From positions 1 through 40,051 of the IMG/VR virus record IMGVR_UViG_3300022751_000026: DNA of 40,051 bases. One strand, written 5' to 3'. The translations under genes and the position numbers were made by a program. This DNA is from a virus. Shown in pieces: positions 9,275-30,110 of this stretch (within the stretch, counting starts at the first letter, position 1; every line of letters starts with the position of its first letter). The notes under the pieces were generated by a model. That model was not told the DNA's origin, made no database searches, and saw only the letters and a program-made list of their open reading frames with translations.

Positions 9275-10177
9275 TTACACTACAACCGCTGTTGCTGTGT
9301 TTGATTTGTAAAGAGTTCCTAATGTAGTTAGGATAATCCCATTTAAAGAAACTGTTACAACATCAGTAGCGACCAAAGCCGGAACTGTAAGAGTGTATTT
9401 CTTAGTTACAGGATCTTGAACAGCAACTGTCGGATTACTTACTACTCCGTTTTTAGTAGCTGTGAAATTTCCGAATAATAATCCATTAACCGAATGAGTT
9501 CCGTCTAAAACAAATGCTTCTACAACTATTGAAGTTCCTGCTGATACCGGATCAATGGTAATTTTAACCTGATTGACTCCTTGTAGTTCATCATAAGTAA
9601 AATCTAAATTTTCATTTGTCACCCACGACATCAAAGAATCAACTTCTAATCTGTTTACGATTTGAAACGTAACTGTTTGACTTGCAGAATCCGTTCCGTT
9701 TGCTCCGGTGTATTTTCCGTTTTGGAACATACCCAAAGAGAATCCTTTGTACTCTCCTGATTTAGTAGAAGTAAGCCATAATGTGTTGTTTACGTCAAAA
9801 AGTACAATATCATAACCTTCATAAGAAGATAGTGATGTTAATGCTTTATGAAAGTTTACGCCATTATCAAAAGTTGCTGCATATTCATACGGCATCTGTC
9901 CGGCTACTTTTTTAATCCCAGAACCATCACGGGTAATTACCGTATCTTCGGCTGTATTATCCACAAAAGTAATTACACCCTGAAGCATAATCAATGTTCC
10001 GTTTGTTTGAAGTTCACGCATGTATTCAAGCGTAATTTCCTCAGCGAATTTAAAACCTCTTGTAAGAAGTCCGATTGCTGTTACTCGATCACGGTCGATA
10101 CGGCATCCGGCTAAACCAGTTCCCAATACTCCGCTCGCTGTACAATCTACTTTGTTAATTTGATCTTCTAAAGCCAT
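9275..10177 (-). CDS. Putative major tail (tube) protein (300 aa)
   Basis: Located after the head-tail connector genes and isolated by a strong terminator, as expected for a highly expressed tail tube protein. The N-terminus (MALEDQINKVDCTASGVLGT) and the beta-rich body (EEITLEYMRELQTNGTLIML, TVTFQIVNRLEV) fit a tube fold. The C-terminal 80 residues (VSAGTSIVVEAFVLDGTHSV onward) look like an added Ig-like or surface domain. The assignment combines position, length and composition; no diagnostic motif. Confidence 0.7.
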   Translation of the reverse strand: MALEDQINKVDCTASGVLGTGLAGCRIDRDRVTAIGLLTRGFKFAEEITLEYMRELQTNGTLIMLQGVITFVDNTAEDTVITRDGSGIKKVAGQMPYEYAATFDNGVNFHKALTSLSSYEGYDIVLFDVNNTLWLTSTKSGEYKGFSLGMFQNGKYTGANGTDSASQTVTFQIVNRLEVDSLMSWVTNENLDFTYDELQGVNQVKITIDPVSAGTSIVVEAFVLDGTHSVNGLLFGNFTATKNGVVSNPTVAVQDPVTKKYTLTVPALVATDVVTVSLNGIILTTLGTLYKSNTATAVVV

Positions 10178-14026: not shown

Positions 14027-15227
14027 AATCTAATTTTGTAAAGTTAGTATCCAACATTTCATTTATCTCGTTCAATTCAATTCCTGCACGCATTAAATTT
14101 AACAATGTTTCAGATTGAGTTTGTAATGTTTCTGCTCTTTCTTTAGCGAAAACCTGCATAAAAGGCAAATGTTCCCAATCAATAATTATTTCTTTTCCTT
14201 CTAAATCATAACCAAAGAACGAAGCGAACCCTTCAAAGAATAACTTTCCTTTTGGAGCTAAGCAATAACTTATAAATGCTCCACGTGCTTTTTCTTGATT
14301 CTCATAAGTTCCAGAAGATAAAGCTTCTAAAACGTCTTTTGGAATATTATAAATCGAACCTATTAAAAACATTTGTGCTAATTGAATTTCATCTAATTTT
14401 AATGATGCTAAATTATCAACAAACCTTTTGATATCAATCATTGATTTAACGGCGTGAACAGATTTGCGACCATTCATTTTAGTTTCAATATCTTGCTTTT
14501 CAGTTTCACCCATTGGCAATTGAGTAACGTTGTTTGGATCAGCTTGCCCTGCAACCATAAACTTTCCGCTATAACGAATGTTTATATTTAAAGCATCCAT
14601 CGCAGCTTCTGAGTTAGATATAATCTTAAATAAAGCATCGATACGGCTTGCACCTCTGAACCAATTCCCCGCTCCGTTTGTCAAATCAGGAGTGTGAATA
14701 ATTTTTCCCCATTGGAATTTAGCTCCAGAACCATCAGCATATTTATAATCAATCATAAAATCCTTAATAGTCTTTTGCAACCCTTTAGATAATATGATTT
14801 TATCCTGATATTTACGCATTTCAGTTGGAAAATCCATTTTGTTGTTTTCCAGAATATACATTAAATTATCTTCGCTTACTAATTTAGAATCACAATAAGC
14901 ATAAGTGTTTCCTACCATATTCCAAAACATCATGTCCCAAAGAAATTGTGATTCTTTTTGAAATGGATTTGGTTTTTTAATCATATCTAAGAACGGATCA
15001 TTATCAACTTCTTTGCCGTCTTTATAAACGTAAACTTTACCCAAAGAGAATAAATCACATTGCAAAGCGAATACTTTTAATACAGCCGGATTTGAGAAAA
15101 TAGCTTCTAACTTTTTAACATCGTCAGAATAGTCATTGTATTGCGCTTTACCGTCTAATTGCCTGTTGATATAAGTAATTACATCATCAAGAAACCCCAA
15201 ACCTAATACATTTCTAATCCAACTCAT
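13977..15227 (-). CDS. Portal protein (416 aa)
   Basis: HK97-type portal features: N-terminal amphipathic region, then LKVFALQCDLFSLGKVYVYK, DPFLDMIKKPNPFQKESQFL (conserved LL..PN.....F pattern), WDMMFWNMVGNTYAYCD, and a long C-terminal helix with FAKERAETLQTQSETLLNLM and RAGIELNEINEML. It forms the dodecameric DNA entry ring and binds the terminase. The order terminase, portal, protease, capsid is canonical. It starts 16 bases downstream of a terminator hairpin. Confidence 0.95.
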   Translation of the reverse strand: MSWIRNVLGLGFLDDVITYINRQLDGKAQYNDYSDDVKKLEAIFSNPAVLKVFALQCDLFSLGKVYVYKDGKEVDNDPFLDMIKKPNPFQKESQFLWDMMFWNMVGNTYAYCDSKLVSEDNLMYILENNKMDFPTEMRKYQDKIILSKGLQKTIKDFMIDYKYADGSGAKFQWGKIIHTPDLTNGAGNWFRGASRIDALFKIISNSEAAMDALNINIRYSGKFMVAGQADPNNVTQLPMGETEKQDIETKMNGRKSVHAVKSMIDIKRFVDNLASLKLDEIQLAQMFLIGSIYNIPKDVLEALSSGTYENQEKARGAFISYCLAPKGKLFFEGFASFFGYDLEGKEIIIDWEHLPFMQVFAKERAETLQTQSETLLNLMRAGIELNEINEMLDTNFTKLDYERAERATQTRSNTAN

Positions 15228-22330: not shown

Positions 22331-24679
22331 TTAAAAAGGAATATCGTTATCGTTTTCTCTTGGTTGTGTTGGGTCCTCAAAATCTATCCATCTTGTTGTG
22401 TTGGTTCTGCCTGATATGTATTTAAGGTTATAGTATTTAGCGTAAGATTCAAGCCATTGTGTGAACTTTCTTTGAGATAGAAACTTCTTAAAATCTTGGT
22501 ACTCATTACAGAATTTTGTAAAATACTCAGTTTTATCAATTCTAAAATTATGCGGTAAATTTTCACGGTCTGAACTCCATTCGTAAAACTCGTAAGAAGT
22601 TTCTTTAATGAATTTTCTAACTTCAAGATTGTTGAAATTATGTTTTACTAATCCATTTTTTAGATAATATTGTTCGCAATTAATCATAAAATTATCAAAA
22701 CGTAACCATTCTTTTTGGTCCCAATCAGAATAAAGCATATGCCCAAATTCATCTAATGGTGTGTGTTTGTGTGAAAAGTAACTTGACATTTCGACTTCAA
22801 ACTTTCTACGCTCAAATGACCCTCCAATGCCTCCAACAGTATAATTTGTTGTAATCAAAATTTTTGGCGACTTTTCCACCGGAATAGTGATTGCATCCTG
22901 TCCTTTGTATTCGAGTGTAATTCCTTCCGTTATAAGAGAAAACAGATTCTCAAAGTTGAAGTTCTTTTTAACATCATCGAAAACCAAAATTTGAGTATCA
23001 GTACTAACAGTTTGATAAGGAAATGTTTTTGTTGGCTCAAACATTTTTCCGTCAATTCTTGAAACCTTTTTCATATTCTTTAATCCATTCCAAAAAATAC
23101 CTTTTCCGCTTCCTCCGTTTGGATTTTCTGATATTGTTTCGTCATTGAAAATAATTGCCTTATTATTTGCGCTAGTTTTGAATGAGTGAAGCAAATATCC
23201 AATAACCGACTTTAGAGAATTATACTTTTGCACATCTTTACCAGACGCAAGCCATAAGTAGGTCCTGAACTCTGATTCGTGATGATCAAATGTTTCGTAA
23301 TTTCTGTCAATTATTTGCCTTCTCCACACATAACCATCAAGATCCAAATAATCAATTTTTTCTATTTTATCAGCAGTAACTTTTACAACACAATTTTTGA
23401 AATACAAATAGCATTCAGTTGATGTATCTTCTTTTATTTCTACTTCTGTAGTGTCTAACATTGAAAGAAAATCAGGTTTAAAATAACCGCTGTTTGAAGC
23501 CATATAATCGTAAGGTCCATACCCAATGTTAGATCGTTCTAATATGTTCTTTAAAACATAATCTTTGATTCTTTTTTCGTTAGTTTCTTCAAGTAAGTTC
23601 TGATCCTTTTTTATAAATGTAAAAGTATTACTTTGCTCTGAAGGATAGTACTTGAAAAAATTGTTTTGCTCTAACCAAAATTTAAACTTATGAGTTGAAA
23701 GAACAACTTTTCCTTTATCATTATAAAACCAAAATTCGTCAATATCTAAAGTTTCTTTTATTCTTGAAATATCAACATCTTTATAAACCTTTTCAATATC
23801 CTTTACCGATTTACCAGAACGGACCATCTTTTCAATCTTTTCTTTTTGGGAAGTATCTTCAAATGCTTTTCCGGCAGAAGGTCTTTTATAAGCAGAACGG
23901 ACCAACGATTCAATTTCTTTTTGCTTACCTCCTTCATCATATTTCATACATTCAGAAAGCGCATCATTATAATCGATAGAGAAGTCATTAAAAGCGGACG
24001 CAAGTTTATGAAGGTTGTTGTTCTTTGATCCTTTATTCATTCCGTATTTTTTGGTCCACCAAACCAATAATTTTTCTACAATCTGATTTGATGAAGTCAT
24101 TCTAACGATAGGTTCATAAGTTCCTATTTCTTCAATATCAGGTTCTTCTAATTCGGTCCATTTAGAACTTTCAGGATTAATATAAATATCAGGGTCGTAA
24201 CTCTCAAAACAGGTCCTACTTACATCGCTTCCTGAATCGTCCCAATTAGGATGATTAAAATATTTTTTTAATGATTGAAAATATCCTTTATGATTTTCTG
24301 TTATGCCAGGAATTTTAACCAATATTTTTACACCTAATGCTGAAGGAGAAATCCAAACTGAATAAATGTATTCGTCACTTAAAATGGAGTTCTTAAATTC
24401 AATTGCTTCGTCTTTGGTTTTGAATTTATCAAAGTCTAAAATAATTAATCCAGAATGTTCAATCAATCCGGTTATTGATCTACTTTTGAATTTGCCATTA
24501 AAACAAACTACAGGTAGCTTTGATTTGTTCTTTGCGTAATCTTCTGGATTCATTAAACGTAATTGTTCAACAAAATCTTTTGATTTACCTTCTTGAATTC
24601 TTTTTAAAGCGTATGAAACGTCCTTATTGAAAGGATTGTTAACATCGGTTATTTTTTTAAAAATTGATATTATTGGCAT
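22331..24679 (-). CDS. VirE-N primase / SF3 helicase fusion protein (782 aa)
   Basis: Two-part replication protein. Residues about 20-170 form a VirE-N/BT4734-type prim-pol-like domain: LIILDFD (78-84) with the acidic pair Asp82/Asp84, and SPSALGVKILVKI (111-123). The C-terminal part is an SF3/D5-like helicase: Walker A NPNGGSGKG (519-527), Walker B-like ILVFDDV, then a sensor-like KILITTNY. It would lay primers and unwind phage DNA. It lies behind its own promoter and kissing-loop leader (24705-24827), and no phage DNA polymerase is seen, so host polymerase is presumably recruited. Confidence 0.9.
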   Translation of the reverse strand: MPIISIFKKITDVNNPFNKDVSYALKRIQEGKSKDFVEQLRLMNPEDYAKNKSKLPVVCFNGKFKSRSITGLIEHSGLIILDFDKFKTKDEAIEFKNSILSDEYIYSVWISPSALGVKILVKIPGITENHKGYFQSLKKYFNHPNWDDSGSDVSRTCFESYDPDIYINPESSKWTELEEPDIEEIGTYEPIVRMTSSNQIVEKLLVWWTKKYGMNKGSKNNNLHKLASAFNDFSIDYNDALSECMKYDEGGKQKEIESLVRSAYKRPSAGKAFEDTSQKEKIEKMVRSGKSVKDIEKVYKDVDISRIKETLDIDEFWFYNDKGKVVLSTHKFKFWLEQNNFFKYYPSEQSNTFTFIKKDQNLLEETNEKRIKDYVLKNILERSNIGYGPYDYMASNSGYFKPDFLSMLDTTEVEIKEDTSTECYLYFKNCVVKVTADKIEKIDYLDLDGYVWRRQIIDRNYETFDHHESEFRTYLWLASGKDVQKYNSLKSVIGYLLHSFKTSANNKAIIFNDETISENPNGGSGKGIFWNGLKNMKKVSRIDGKMFEPTKTFPYQTVSTDTQILVFDDVKKNFNFENLFSLITEGITLEYKGQDAITIPVEKSPKILITTNYTVGGIGGSFERRKFEVEMSSYFSHKHTPLDEFGHMLYSDWDQKEWLRFDNFMINCEQYYLKNGLVKHNFNNLEVRKFIKETSYEFYEWSSDRENLPHNFRIDKTEYFTKFCNEYQDFKKFLSQRKFTQWLESYAKYYNLKYISGRTNTTRWIDFEDPTQPRENDNDIPF

Positions 24680-24704
24680 AGTAAAAATGGTTTAAAAACA
24701 AAAA

Positions 24705-24792
24705 CTCCCATAATTCAAAACGCTTCTCACTTCGTTTTTCCTTATAGGAGCTGTGTAATTTCTTTAGTTGGTATAATGTGAGAAGCCAACCA
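24705..24792 (-). promoter_or_regulatory. Structured leader RNA with terminator and loop-loop pairing (primase-helicase)
   Basis: On the minus-strand transcript hairpin 1 has stem TGGTTGG/CCAACTA (24786-24792 with 24765-24771) and a 14-base loop containing CTTCTCAC. Hairpin 2 has 9 bp, a 3x3 internal loop, then 6 bp (24733-24750 with 24705-24722), and a 10-base loop containing GTGAGAAG, followed by TTTTTGTTTTT. The two loops are perfectly complementary over 8 bases. Hairpin 2 is a terminator 25 bases before the ATG. The leader at 26712-26794 has the same layout with different loop sequences. Confidence 0.7.
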
Positions 24793-24797
24793 CAAGA

Positions 24798-24827
24798 CAA
24801 ATATAGTTATTATTTATTAATACACAA
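24798..24827 (-). promoter_or_regulatory. Promoter of the primase-helicase operon
   Basis: Minus strand: TTG, exactly 19 bases, TATATTTG. This is identical in form to the promoters at 30081-30110 and 33696-33725. Predicted transcription start is near 24792, the first base of leader hairpin 1. Confidence 0.8.
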
Positions 24828-24842
24828 CAGTTTTATGTAAAA

Positions 24843-24997
24843 AAAGATGTGTCACTCTGTTAACCCTAATAAAATAAAGGGTTAACGAGGAAAAGTGACG
24901 TATCTTTATATTTTTTACCTTTTGCAAAAACTTTTTTATTTAGTGGTTTCGTTTTTTATATAGTAAGTATAAAGTACTTTTTTGGTCGATGTGTCAC
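24843..24997. repeat. Nested inverted repeats with repeated 10-mer (candidate origin/operator)
   Basis: Within the 384-base gene-free region 24680-25063. AAAGAT (24843-24848) pairs with ATCTTT (24902-24907), GTCAC (24851-24855) with GTGAC (24895-24899), and GTTAACCC (24859-24866) with GGGTTAAC (24879-24886), around a 12-base loop. The 10-mer GATGTGTCAC occurs at 24846-24855 and exactly again at 24988-24997, with an inverted near-copy at 24895-24904. An AT-rich tract (24905-24960) and the palindrome AAAGTACTTT (24971-24980) lie between. It stands just upstream of the primase-helicase promoter, so a replication origin or operator is plausible. Confidence 0.55.
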
Positions 24998-26698: not shown

Positions 26699-26711
26699 AT
26701 TTTAAAAAGTA

Positions 26712-26794
26712 AAAGGGTCTTACAAGCCACTACACTTATAAAACCCTTTCGATTAGACGTTGTCTAAATATCTTCTCGCAAGTAGTGGTTTGCG
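26712..26794 (-). promoter_or_regulatory. Structured leader RNA with terminator and loop-loop pairing (helicase)
   Basis: On the transcript hairpin 1 is CGCAA/TTGCG (26790-26794 with 26777-26781) with the loop ACCACTAC. A middle hairpin is TAGAC/GTCTA (26754-26766, 3-base loop). Hairpin 3 is a continuous 15-bp stem with two G-T pairs (26735-26749 with 26712-26726), loop TGTAGTGG, followed by TACTTTTT. CCACTAC in loop 1 is the exact complement of GTAGTGG in loop 3 (7 bases). Hairpin 3 ends 13 bases before the helicase ATG and looks like an attenuator. Confidence 0.7.
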
Positions 26795-26801
26795 ATTTTA
26801 T

Positions 26802-26809
26802 CAAATATA
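26802..26809 (-). promoter_or_regulatory. Promoter -7 element of the helicase unit
   Basis: Minus strand TATATTTG, about 8 bases before the base of leader hairpin 1, the same arrangement as at 24798. No clear -33 TTG, so it may be weaker or need an activator. Confidence 0.55.
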
Positions 26810-30080: not shown

Positions 30081-30110
30081 CAAATATACGACATGTTTTT
30101 AGATAAACAA
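30081..30110 (-). promoter_or_regulatory. Promoter of the second early operon
   Basis: Minus strand: TTG, exactly 19 bases, TATATTTG. Follows the terminator at 30162-30188. Predicted start near 30075, 25 bases before the ATG at 30050. Confidence 0.8.

Follow-up and report, generated by a model that had tools for sequence, protein, structure and literature searches.

Why would two replication genes of one phage each be preceded by a leader RNA in which the loop of a promoter-proximal hairpin is complementary to the loop of a terminator-like hairpin? The window analyzed here, that is, the whole 40,051-bp IMG/VR virus record, carries most of its genes on the minus strand and, judging by its genes, promoters and relatives (Flavobacterium, Cellulophaga and Polaribacter phages), belongs to a Bacteroidota phage; a DNA similarity search against a phage collection returned no match to it. 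On the minus strand, the primase-helicase gene comes after an SF2 helicase gene that ends in an ordinary terminator-like hairpin (25055-25025), and therefore the primase probably begins a transcription unit of its own.

Two leaders with one layout

The initial annotation had read the primase leader as a promoter, a hairpin at the predicted 5' end, a terminator hairpin with a T-run and the ATG, in this order, and all these elements are present on the minus strand (Table 1), with the ATG at 24679. The complementarity claimed for the two loops is real as well, although it spans 9 nt rather than 8, GCTTCTCAC in the loop of hairpin 1 facing GTGAGAAGC in the loop of hairpin 2, with the ninth pair taking the G that closes the stem of hairpin 1. 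Within the window, GCTTCTCAC has two matches (0.12 expected), which are the two kissing segments, K1 and K2. The primase leader RNA folds better than its own shuffles (z -2.48), its minimum-energy fold consists of hairpin 1 and the terminator, and the sequence contains the predicted signature of an intrinsic terminator, a stable hairpin followed directly by a U-tract.

Table 1. Coordinates of the two leaders and their genes in the window
Feature	Position	Strand	Remarks
Primase-helicase gene, 782 aa	22331..24679	-	downstream of primase leader; PHROG 28855, 18375
Primase leader, terminator U-tract UUUUUGUUUUU	24694..24704	-	DNA T-run TTTTTGTTTTT; 14 nt before ATG
Primase leader, hairpin 2, terminator-like	24703..24752	-	lower stem CUCCUAUAA/UUAUGGGAG, interior loop, upper stem AAAACG/CGUUUU
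Primase leader, kissing segment K2, GUGAGAAGC	24722..24730	-	apical loop of hairpin 2; covaries with K1
Primase leader, A-rich linker AAGAAAUUACAC	24753..24764	-	hairpin 1 to terminator hairpin
Primase leader, hairpin 1	24765..24792	-	predicted 5' end; U/GGUUGG-CUUCUCACAUUAUA-CCAACU/A, 14-nt loop
Primase leader, kissing segment K1, GCUUCUCAC	24778..24786	-	hairpin-1 loop; covaries with K2
Primase leader, promoter -7 element TATATTTG	24798..24805	-	fits Bacteroidota consensus TAnnTTTG; TTG 19 nt upstream
SF2 helicase gene, 544 aa	25064..26698	-	downstream of helicase leader
Helicase leader, terminator hairpin	26711..26750	-	K2 = GUAGUGG (26733-26727)
Helicase leader, hairpin 1	26776..26795	-	UCGCAA-ACCACUAC-UUGCGA; K1 = CCACUAC (26788-26782)
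Helicase leader, promoter TATATTTG	26802..26809	-

The helicase leader (26809-26700) repeats the layout of the primase leader with its own loop pair, CCACUAC/GUAGUGG, and the loops of the two leaders share no sequence, as noted initially (the longest match by eye is at most 3-4 nt). At 30088 and 33703 on the minus strand, the window has two further TATATTTG promoters, each followed by a short A-rich leader with no such hairpins, and thus the kissing leader is not general to the promoters of this phage.

Loop complementarity exceeds chance expectation

A detector that combines a hairpin, a terminator hairpin and complementary loops was run on the whole window and gave scores of 36 for the helicase leader and 32 for the primase leader, whereas 20 shuffled versions of the full window with dinucleotides preserved reached 28 at most; by this full-layout detector, only these two leaders stand out in the window. 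A set of relatives was then assembled from IMG/VR primase and helicase homologs, DNA-pattern contigs, genome contigs and isolate genomes (255 sequences, 2.8 Mb). The only anchors were a TAnnTTTG promoter, a hairpin bearing a T-run and an ATG beyond it, and 513 unique leaders were obtained. Among the 126 leaders with a terminator score of at least 10, which include close relatives and hence are not fully independent, 64 had a 5' part complementary to the terminator loop zone over 7 nt or more, versus 3.6 expected with shuffled 5' parts and 4.5 (maximum 10.2) when loops were swapped between leaders, a 14-fold excess over the swap control. At a looser score cut, 55 distinct complementary words were counted. 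Scanning IMG/VR for the pattern TATATTTG-N-AAAAACATTATA mostly returned chance matches within genes, and also new leaders, identified by loop match, on three contigs (L131, L148, L149).

The loops change in step

Because loops and linkers vary, subsets of leaders were aligned rather than all leaders together. The primase-leader orthologs that align well (n=4: the window, L005, L188 and L148) have the loops CUUCUCAC, CUCUUCAC, CUUCUCAC and CUCAUCAC, respectively, each with its matching complement. In this set, the kissing helix is 100% paired and two of its eight pairs are changed on both sides (0/500 shuffles); one pair of hairpin 1 is also doubly changed, and the last pair of the hairpin-1 stem covaries from GC to CG in L005. 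The same behavior can be followed at a single loop position, which is G-C, U-A or A-U in CGUCCAC (L062), CUUCCAC (L011) and CAUCCAC (L199), with the surroundings kept. In seven leaders of subtype A, all 49 of 49 cells of the kissing helix are paired, with double changes in four of seven pairs, and the covariation of the whole structure is 0.596 versus 0.183 in shuffles (0/500). The aligned sets were selected for complementarity, which inflates the percentages of paired positions, whereas the swap controls and a model blind to the loop pairing are free of this bias.

That covariance model included both hairpins and omitted the kissing pairs. In a search of phage sequences, it recovered leaders beyond its training set, contrary to the absence of any other fitting leader that the initial annotation had named as evidence against its reading, and loops complementary over 6-7 nt are present in all five new matches that could be judged (L192, L191, L207:7825, L190:14 on the minus strand, and L201:7020). 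Both stems and the loop-loop helix thus covary, and the matched loop pairs across leaders are the result of compensatory evolution, with chance excluded. The initial annotation had reasoned in this direction from two leaders with equal layout and independently matched loops; the argument now extends to dozens of leaders with formal pair counts. Seven-base matches are frequent in AT-rich DNA, and each shuffled window contains about 10 weak matches, but accidental complementarity in AT-rich intergenic DNA is scarcely credible as an explanation given the 14-fold excess over the swap control, the covariation and the recovery of leaders by the pairing-blind model. The in-step changes on both sides point, at the level of sequence, to the kissing leaders being a real, undescribed RNA switch.

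Anatomy of the leader class

The relatives repeat the layout with about 50 different, matching loop pairs and at a fixed position between promoter and ATG. The -7 element lies directly upstream of nearly every related leader, and hairpin 1 starts approximately 5-20 nt from it, which puts this hairpin at the 5' end or close to it. One subtype has 8-nt loops in both hairpins, each made of one unpaired A and seven paired bases, with the stems closing directly, as in the mumin example, GUAG-A-GUCGUCG-CUAC and AAAG-A-CGACGAC-CUUU. The complement is restricted to the loops and abuts the stems without overlapping the terminator stem, which has an upper and a lower part, often with an interior loop between them. 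The linkers are A-rich, often AAAAACAUUAUA, and mostly 11-26 nt long; nearly all linkers of at least 27 nt hold a small hairpin of their own, which restores the effective length, so that effective linker length is constrained.

Not every leader has a full hairpin 1. In L007:3884, L111:506 and L178:10272, a 5' segment matches the terminator loop although hairpin 1 has a 3-bp stem or none at all, which suggests a pseudoknot between the 5' segment and the loop in these cases; the core of the element may be the loop pairing rather than hairpin 1.

Behind hairpin 2, the directly adjacent tail is 73% T, and the distance from the U-tract region to the ATG is mostly 10-25 nt. The kissing complex might act post-transcriptionally, by capping or stabilizing the 5' end of the mRNA or by setting translation, with the T-rich stretch being an AU-rich start region; a hairpin 1 located at the predicted 5' end would suit such a role, as would the near constant short distance of the ATG (mostly 10-25 nt) behind hairpin 2. 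However, the start regions of the leader genes are rich in T (52%), as terminators need, in contrast to the A-rich starts of the other genes on these contigs (46% A, 32% T); this difference favors a terminator over a plain start region, and we regard post-transcriptional action as unlikely.

A putative self-kissing attenuator

Our preferred reading, which we consider probable, is that the leaders attenuate transcription in cis, with read-through set by loop-loop pairing. The polymerase would make hairpin 1 first, at the extreme 5' end, then the linker and then the terminator hairpin. The loop of hairpin 1 would capture the emerging terminator loop in a kissing helix of 7-9 bp before the 3' arm of the terminator is complete, and whether this pairing forms, or is stabilized, would set what share of polymerases runs on past the U-tract to the gene, which begins 10-25 nt further on. 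Three parts of this model are inferred: formation of the pairing in cis, termination at the hairpin with its U-tract, and an effect of pairing on termination.

The closest precedent for the kissing leaders is the layout of the guanidine-IV riboswitch (mepA), in which the loop of a 5' hairpin kisses a loop on the terminator side and hinders completion of the terminator, giving read-through, while the linker becomes shorter as the terminator zips up, which disfavors kissing (PMC11611296). The likeness, established here by sequence and covariation, lies in a 5' hairpin loop that matches the loop of a terminator hairpin across a flexible linker. In contrast to guanidine-IV, whose response to guanidine depends on conserved nucleotides around the kissing loop, the loop sequences here differ in nearly every leader (the 55 words above), and guanidine-IV precedes an exporter gene in bacteria such as Clostridium, whereas the present leaders precede phage replication and endonuclease genes. 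No meaningful match for the kissing leaders was found in Rfam at gathering or relaxed thresholds, a result that, the relaxed E-value included, counts against guanidine-IV only if Rfam 15 holds that family.

By analogy with the guanidine-IV kissing loop, we would guess, with a slight lean, that pairing promotes read-through rather than termination. According to a rough length estimate, most linkers just suffice for full kissing together with a full terminator, and the window primase linker seems too short for both; with linkers this close to the limit, geometry does not fix the sign of the effect. The kissing helix and the complete terminator may coexist, so that pairing need not alter termination. 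A variant within the same attenuator frame, with the opposite sign, is that the kissing complex aids termination: hairpin 1 would stack on the terminator, help it to fold and keep expression low or delayed, with expression arising by leakage or through a phage factor that opens the complex. The complement spares the terminator stem, which leaves kissing compatible with the terminator, the linkers are just long enough for this in most leaders, and leaders also precede genes that are plausibly kept low, such as endonucleases. However, a longer GC-rich stem would achieve the same more simply, and the separate 5' hairpin, kept in many genomes, would be left unexplained; we judge this variant somewhat unlikely.

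The structure is kept and the letters of the loops are free, which fits a factor or condition that senses shape better than a reader of sequence. In the attenuator model, shape could be sensed by a Rop-like RNA-binding protein or through polymerase speed. Leaders within one genome differ in their loops (the window, L093, L148, L193 and L040), which would stop them from pairing with each other and argues against a common trans-acting RNA. A possible exception is seen in L185: the hairpin-1 loops of the leaders at 9700-9813 and 14638-14735, GTGAGACG and GTCTCAG, are mutually complementary over 6 nt, through either cross-talk or chance. In the window, the cross-regulation between the two leaders that the initial annotation had raised found no counterpart in the sequence, with no loop sequence common to both.

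Relation to antisense and phage leader systems

Replication genes are controlled by transcription attenuation in the plasmid antisense attenuators of pT181 and pIP501, and ColE1 RNAI/RNAII and R1 CopA/CopT are kissing copy-control pairs. These plasmid systems resemble the present leaders in loop-loop recognition over about 7 nt, in hairpins with interior loops and in the proposed control of replication genes by transcription attenuation, but their partner is a separate RNA from the opposite strand, whereas here both loops lie in one transcript. Among phages, put of HK022 is an early leader RNA whose promoter-near hairpins modify termination; it is similar in being a phage leader with hairpins near the promoter, and differs in acting on the polymerase and on distant terminators, whereas hairpin 2 of the present leaders is terminator-like itself and has hairpin 1 as its predicted pairing partner. 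A pT181-type antiterminator, pairing with the 5' arm of the terminator, was considered and ruled out, since the minimum-energy fold consists of hairpin 1 and the terminator and the complement is confined to the loops, clear of the terminator stem; the leader is therefore not a classical antiterminator switch.

Action in trans would take one of two forms: the terminated leader of about 100 nt could accumulate as a small RNA that pairs, through its loops, with nascent leaders on further transcripts of the same gene, as copy-number feedback like that of CopA or RNAI, or a separate antisense RNA could be the partner. Antisense control usually starts with kissing loops, and interior loops, present here, are a design feature of sensing hairpins (PMC4878617). 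However, with both partners in one RNA, cis pairing should win, the loops of the two window leaders are mismatched, K1 of the primase leader finds no partner in the window besides its own K2, and no strong promoter was found on the opposite strand over the primase leader: on the plus strand near it, neither TATATTTG nor TAAATTTG was found, and weak TAnnTTTG matches at 24481 and 24515 occur at chance frequency. We therefore hold action in trans to be distinctly unlikely.

Distribution and downstream genes

The leaders recur in Bacteroidota phages, including three isolated Flavobacterium phages. Phage mumin6-3 carries two, one before the NUMOD4 endonuclease gp033 and one before gp036 with the helicase gp037; snusmum9-1 carries three, at the helicase gp032, the endonuclease gp039 and gp042 with the helicase gp043; and in elemo a leader lies upstream of gp17, the replication initiation gene and the primase. 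Among the genes downstream of 44 leaders, SF2 helicases (13) and BT4734-type primases (6) partly reflect the queries; NUMOD4/HNH, NUMOD3, GIY-YIG and YopX-like genes also occur, and a methylase-like ORF and several unknown ORFs are preceded by a kissing leader as well. Given this range of genes, the initial proposal of a paired system for the two replication genes is too narrow and finds no support.

No leader was present in the searched stretches of the Manatee Spring podovirus MW202828, Cellulophaga phi46:1 and phi17:1, Polaribacter Leef_1, Maribacter Panino and Flavobacterium lotta8-1. In 395 Bacteroidota genomes, the covariance model with strict filters gave two weak matches, neither of which is a kissing leader according to the detector; absence from host chromosomes is only suggested. 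We tentatively propose that self-kissing attenuators form a widespread RNA class of Bacteroidota phages with conserved shape, of which several non-interfering copies could be controlled jointly during infection by one shape-reading factor or by polymerase speed.

The timing of gene expression in Bacteroidota phages is poorly known, and this leader class is common and, in the literature searched, undescribed. It offers a simple rule, loop swapping, and occurs in isolated Flavobacterium phages that can be grown. If the leaders are attenuators, they add to RNA regulation a cis kissing-loop type without a conserved ligand pocket, and the approximately 50 natural, mutually different kissing pairs are a useful set for RNA engineering.

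Other elements near primase genes

Among the primase homologs surveyed, the distinct leaders directly upstream are of two kinds, the complementary-loop type and a second type (L013-L031, L043 and L053; for example, L014:3903-4000 on the plus strand). The second type has no Rfam match and consists of an AGGGG..CCCCU hairpin that contains a conserved GUUGUCGGAGGCAUCCAC or GUCGGUUAGCUGCCAC part, and a U-tract; its inner loop pairs with the stretch immediately past the U-tract and shows compensatory changes (UUACUCGUU/AACGAGUAA, UUCUUGCU/AGCAAGAA and UUCACUGUU/AACAGUGAA). A sub-threshold Rfam match to abiF RNA (32.3 bits, threshold 37) was observed at L054:1520-1555. Upstream of the primase promoter in the window, a direct repeat of GATGTGTCAC occupies 24846-24855 and 24988-24997, and a 9-bp GTTAACCCT hairpin lies within 24846-24997; these elements are possible origin iterons or an operator, and GTGTCA repeats upstream of the primase are also found in L009, L062 and L063.
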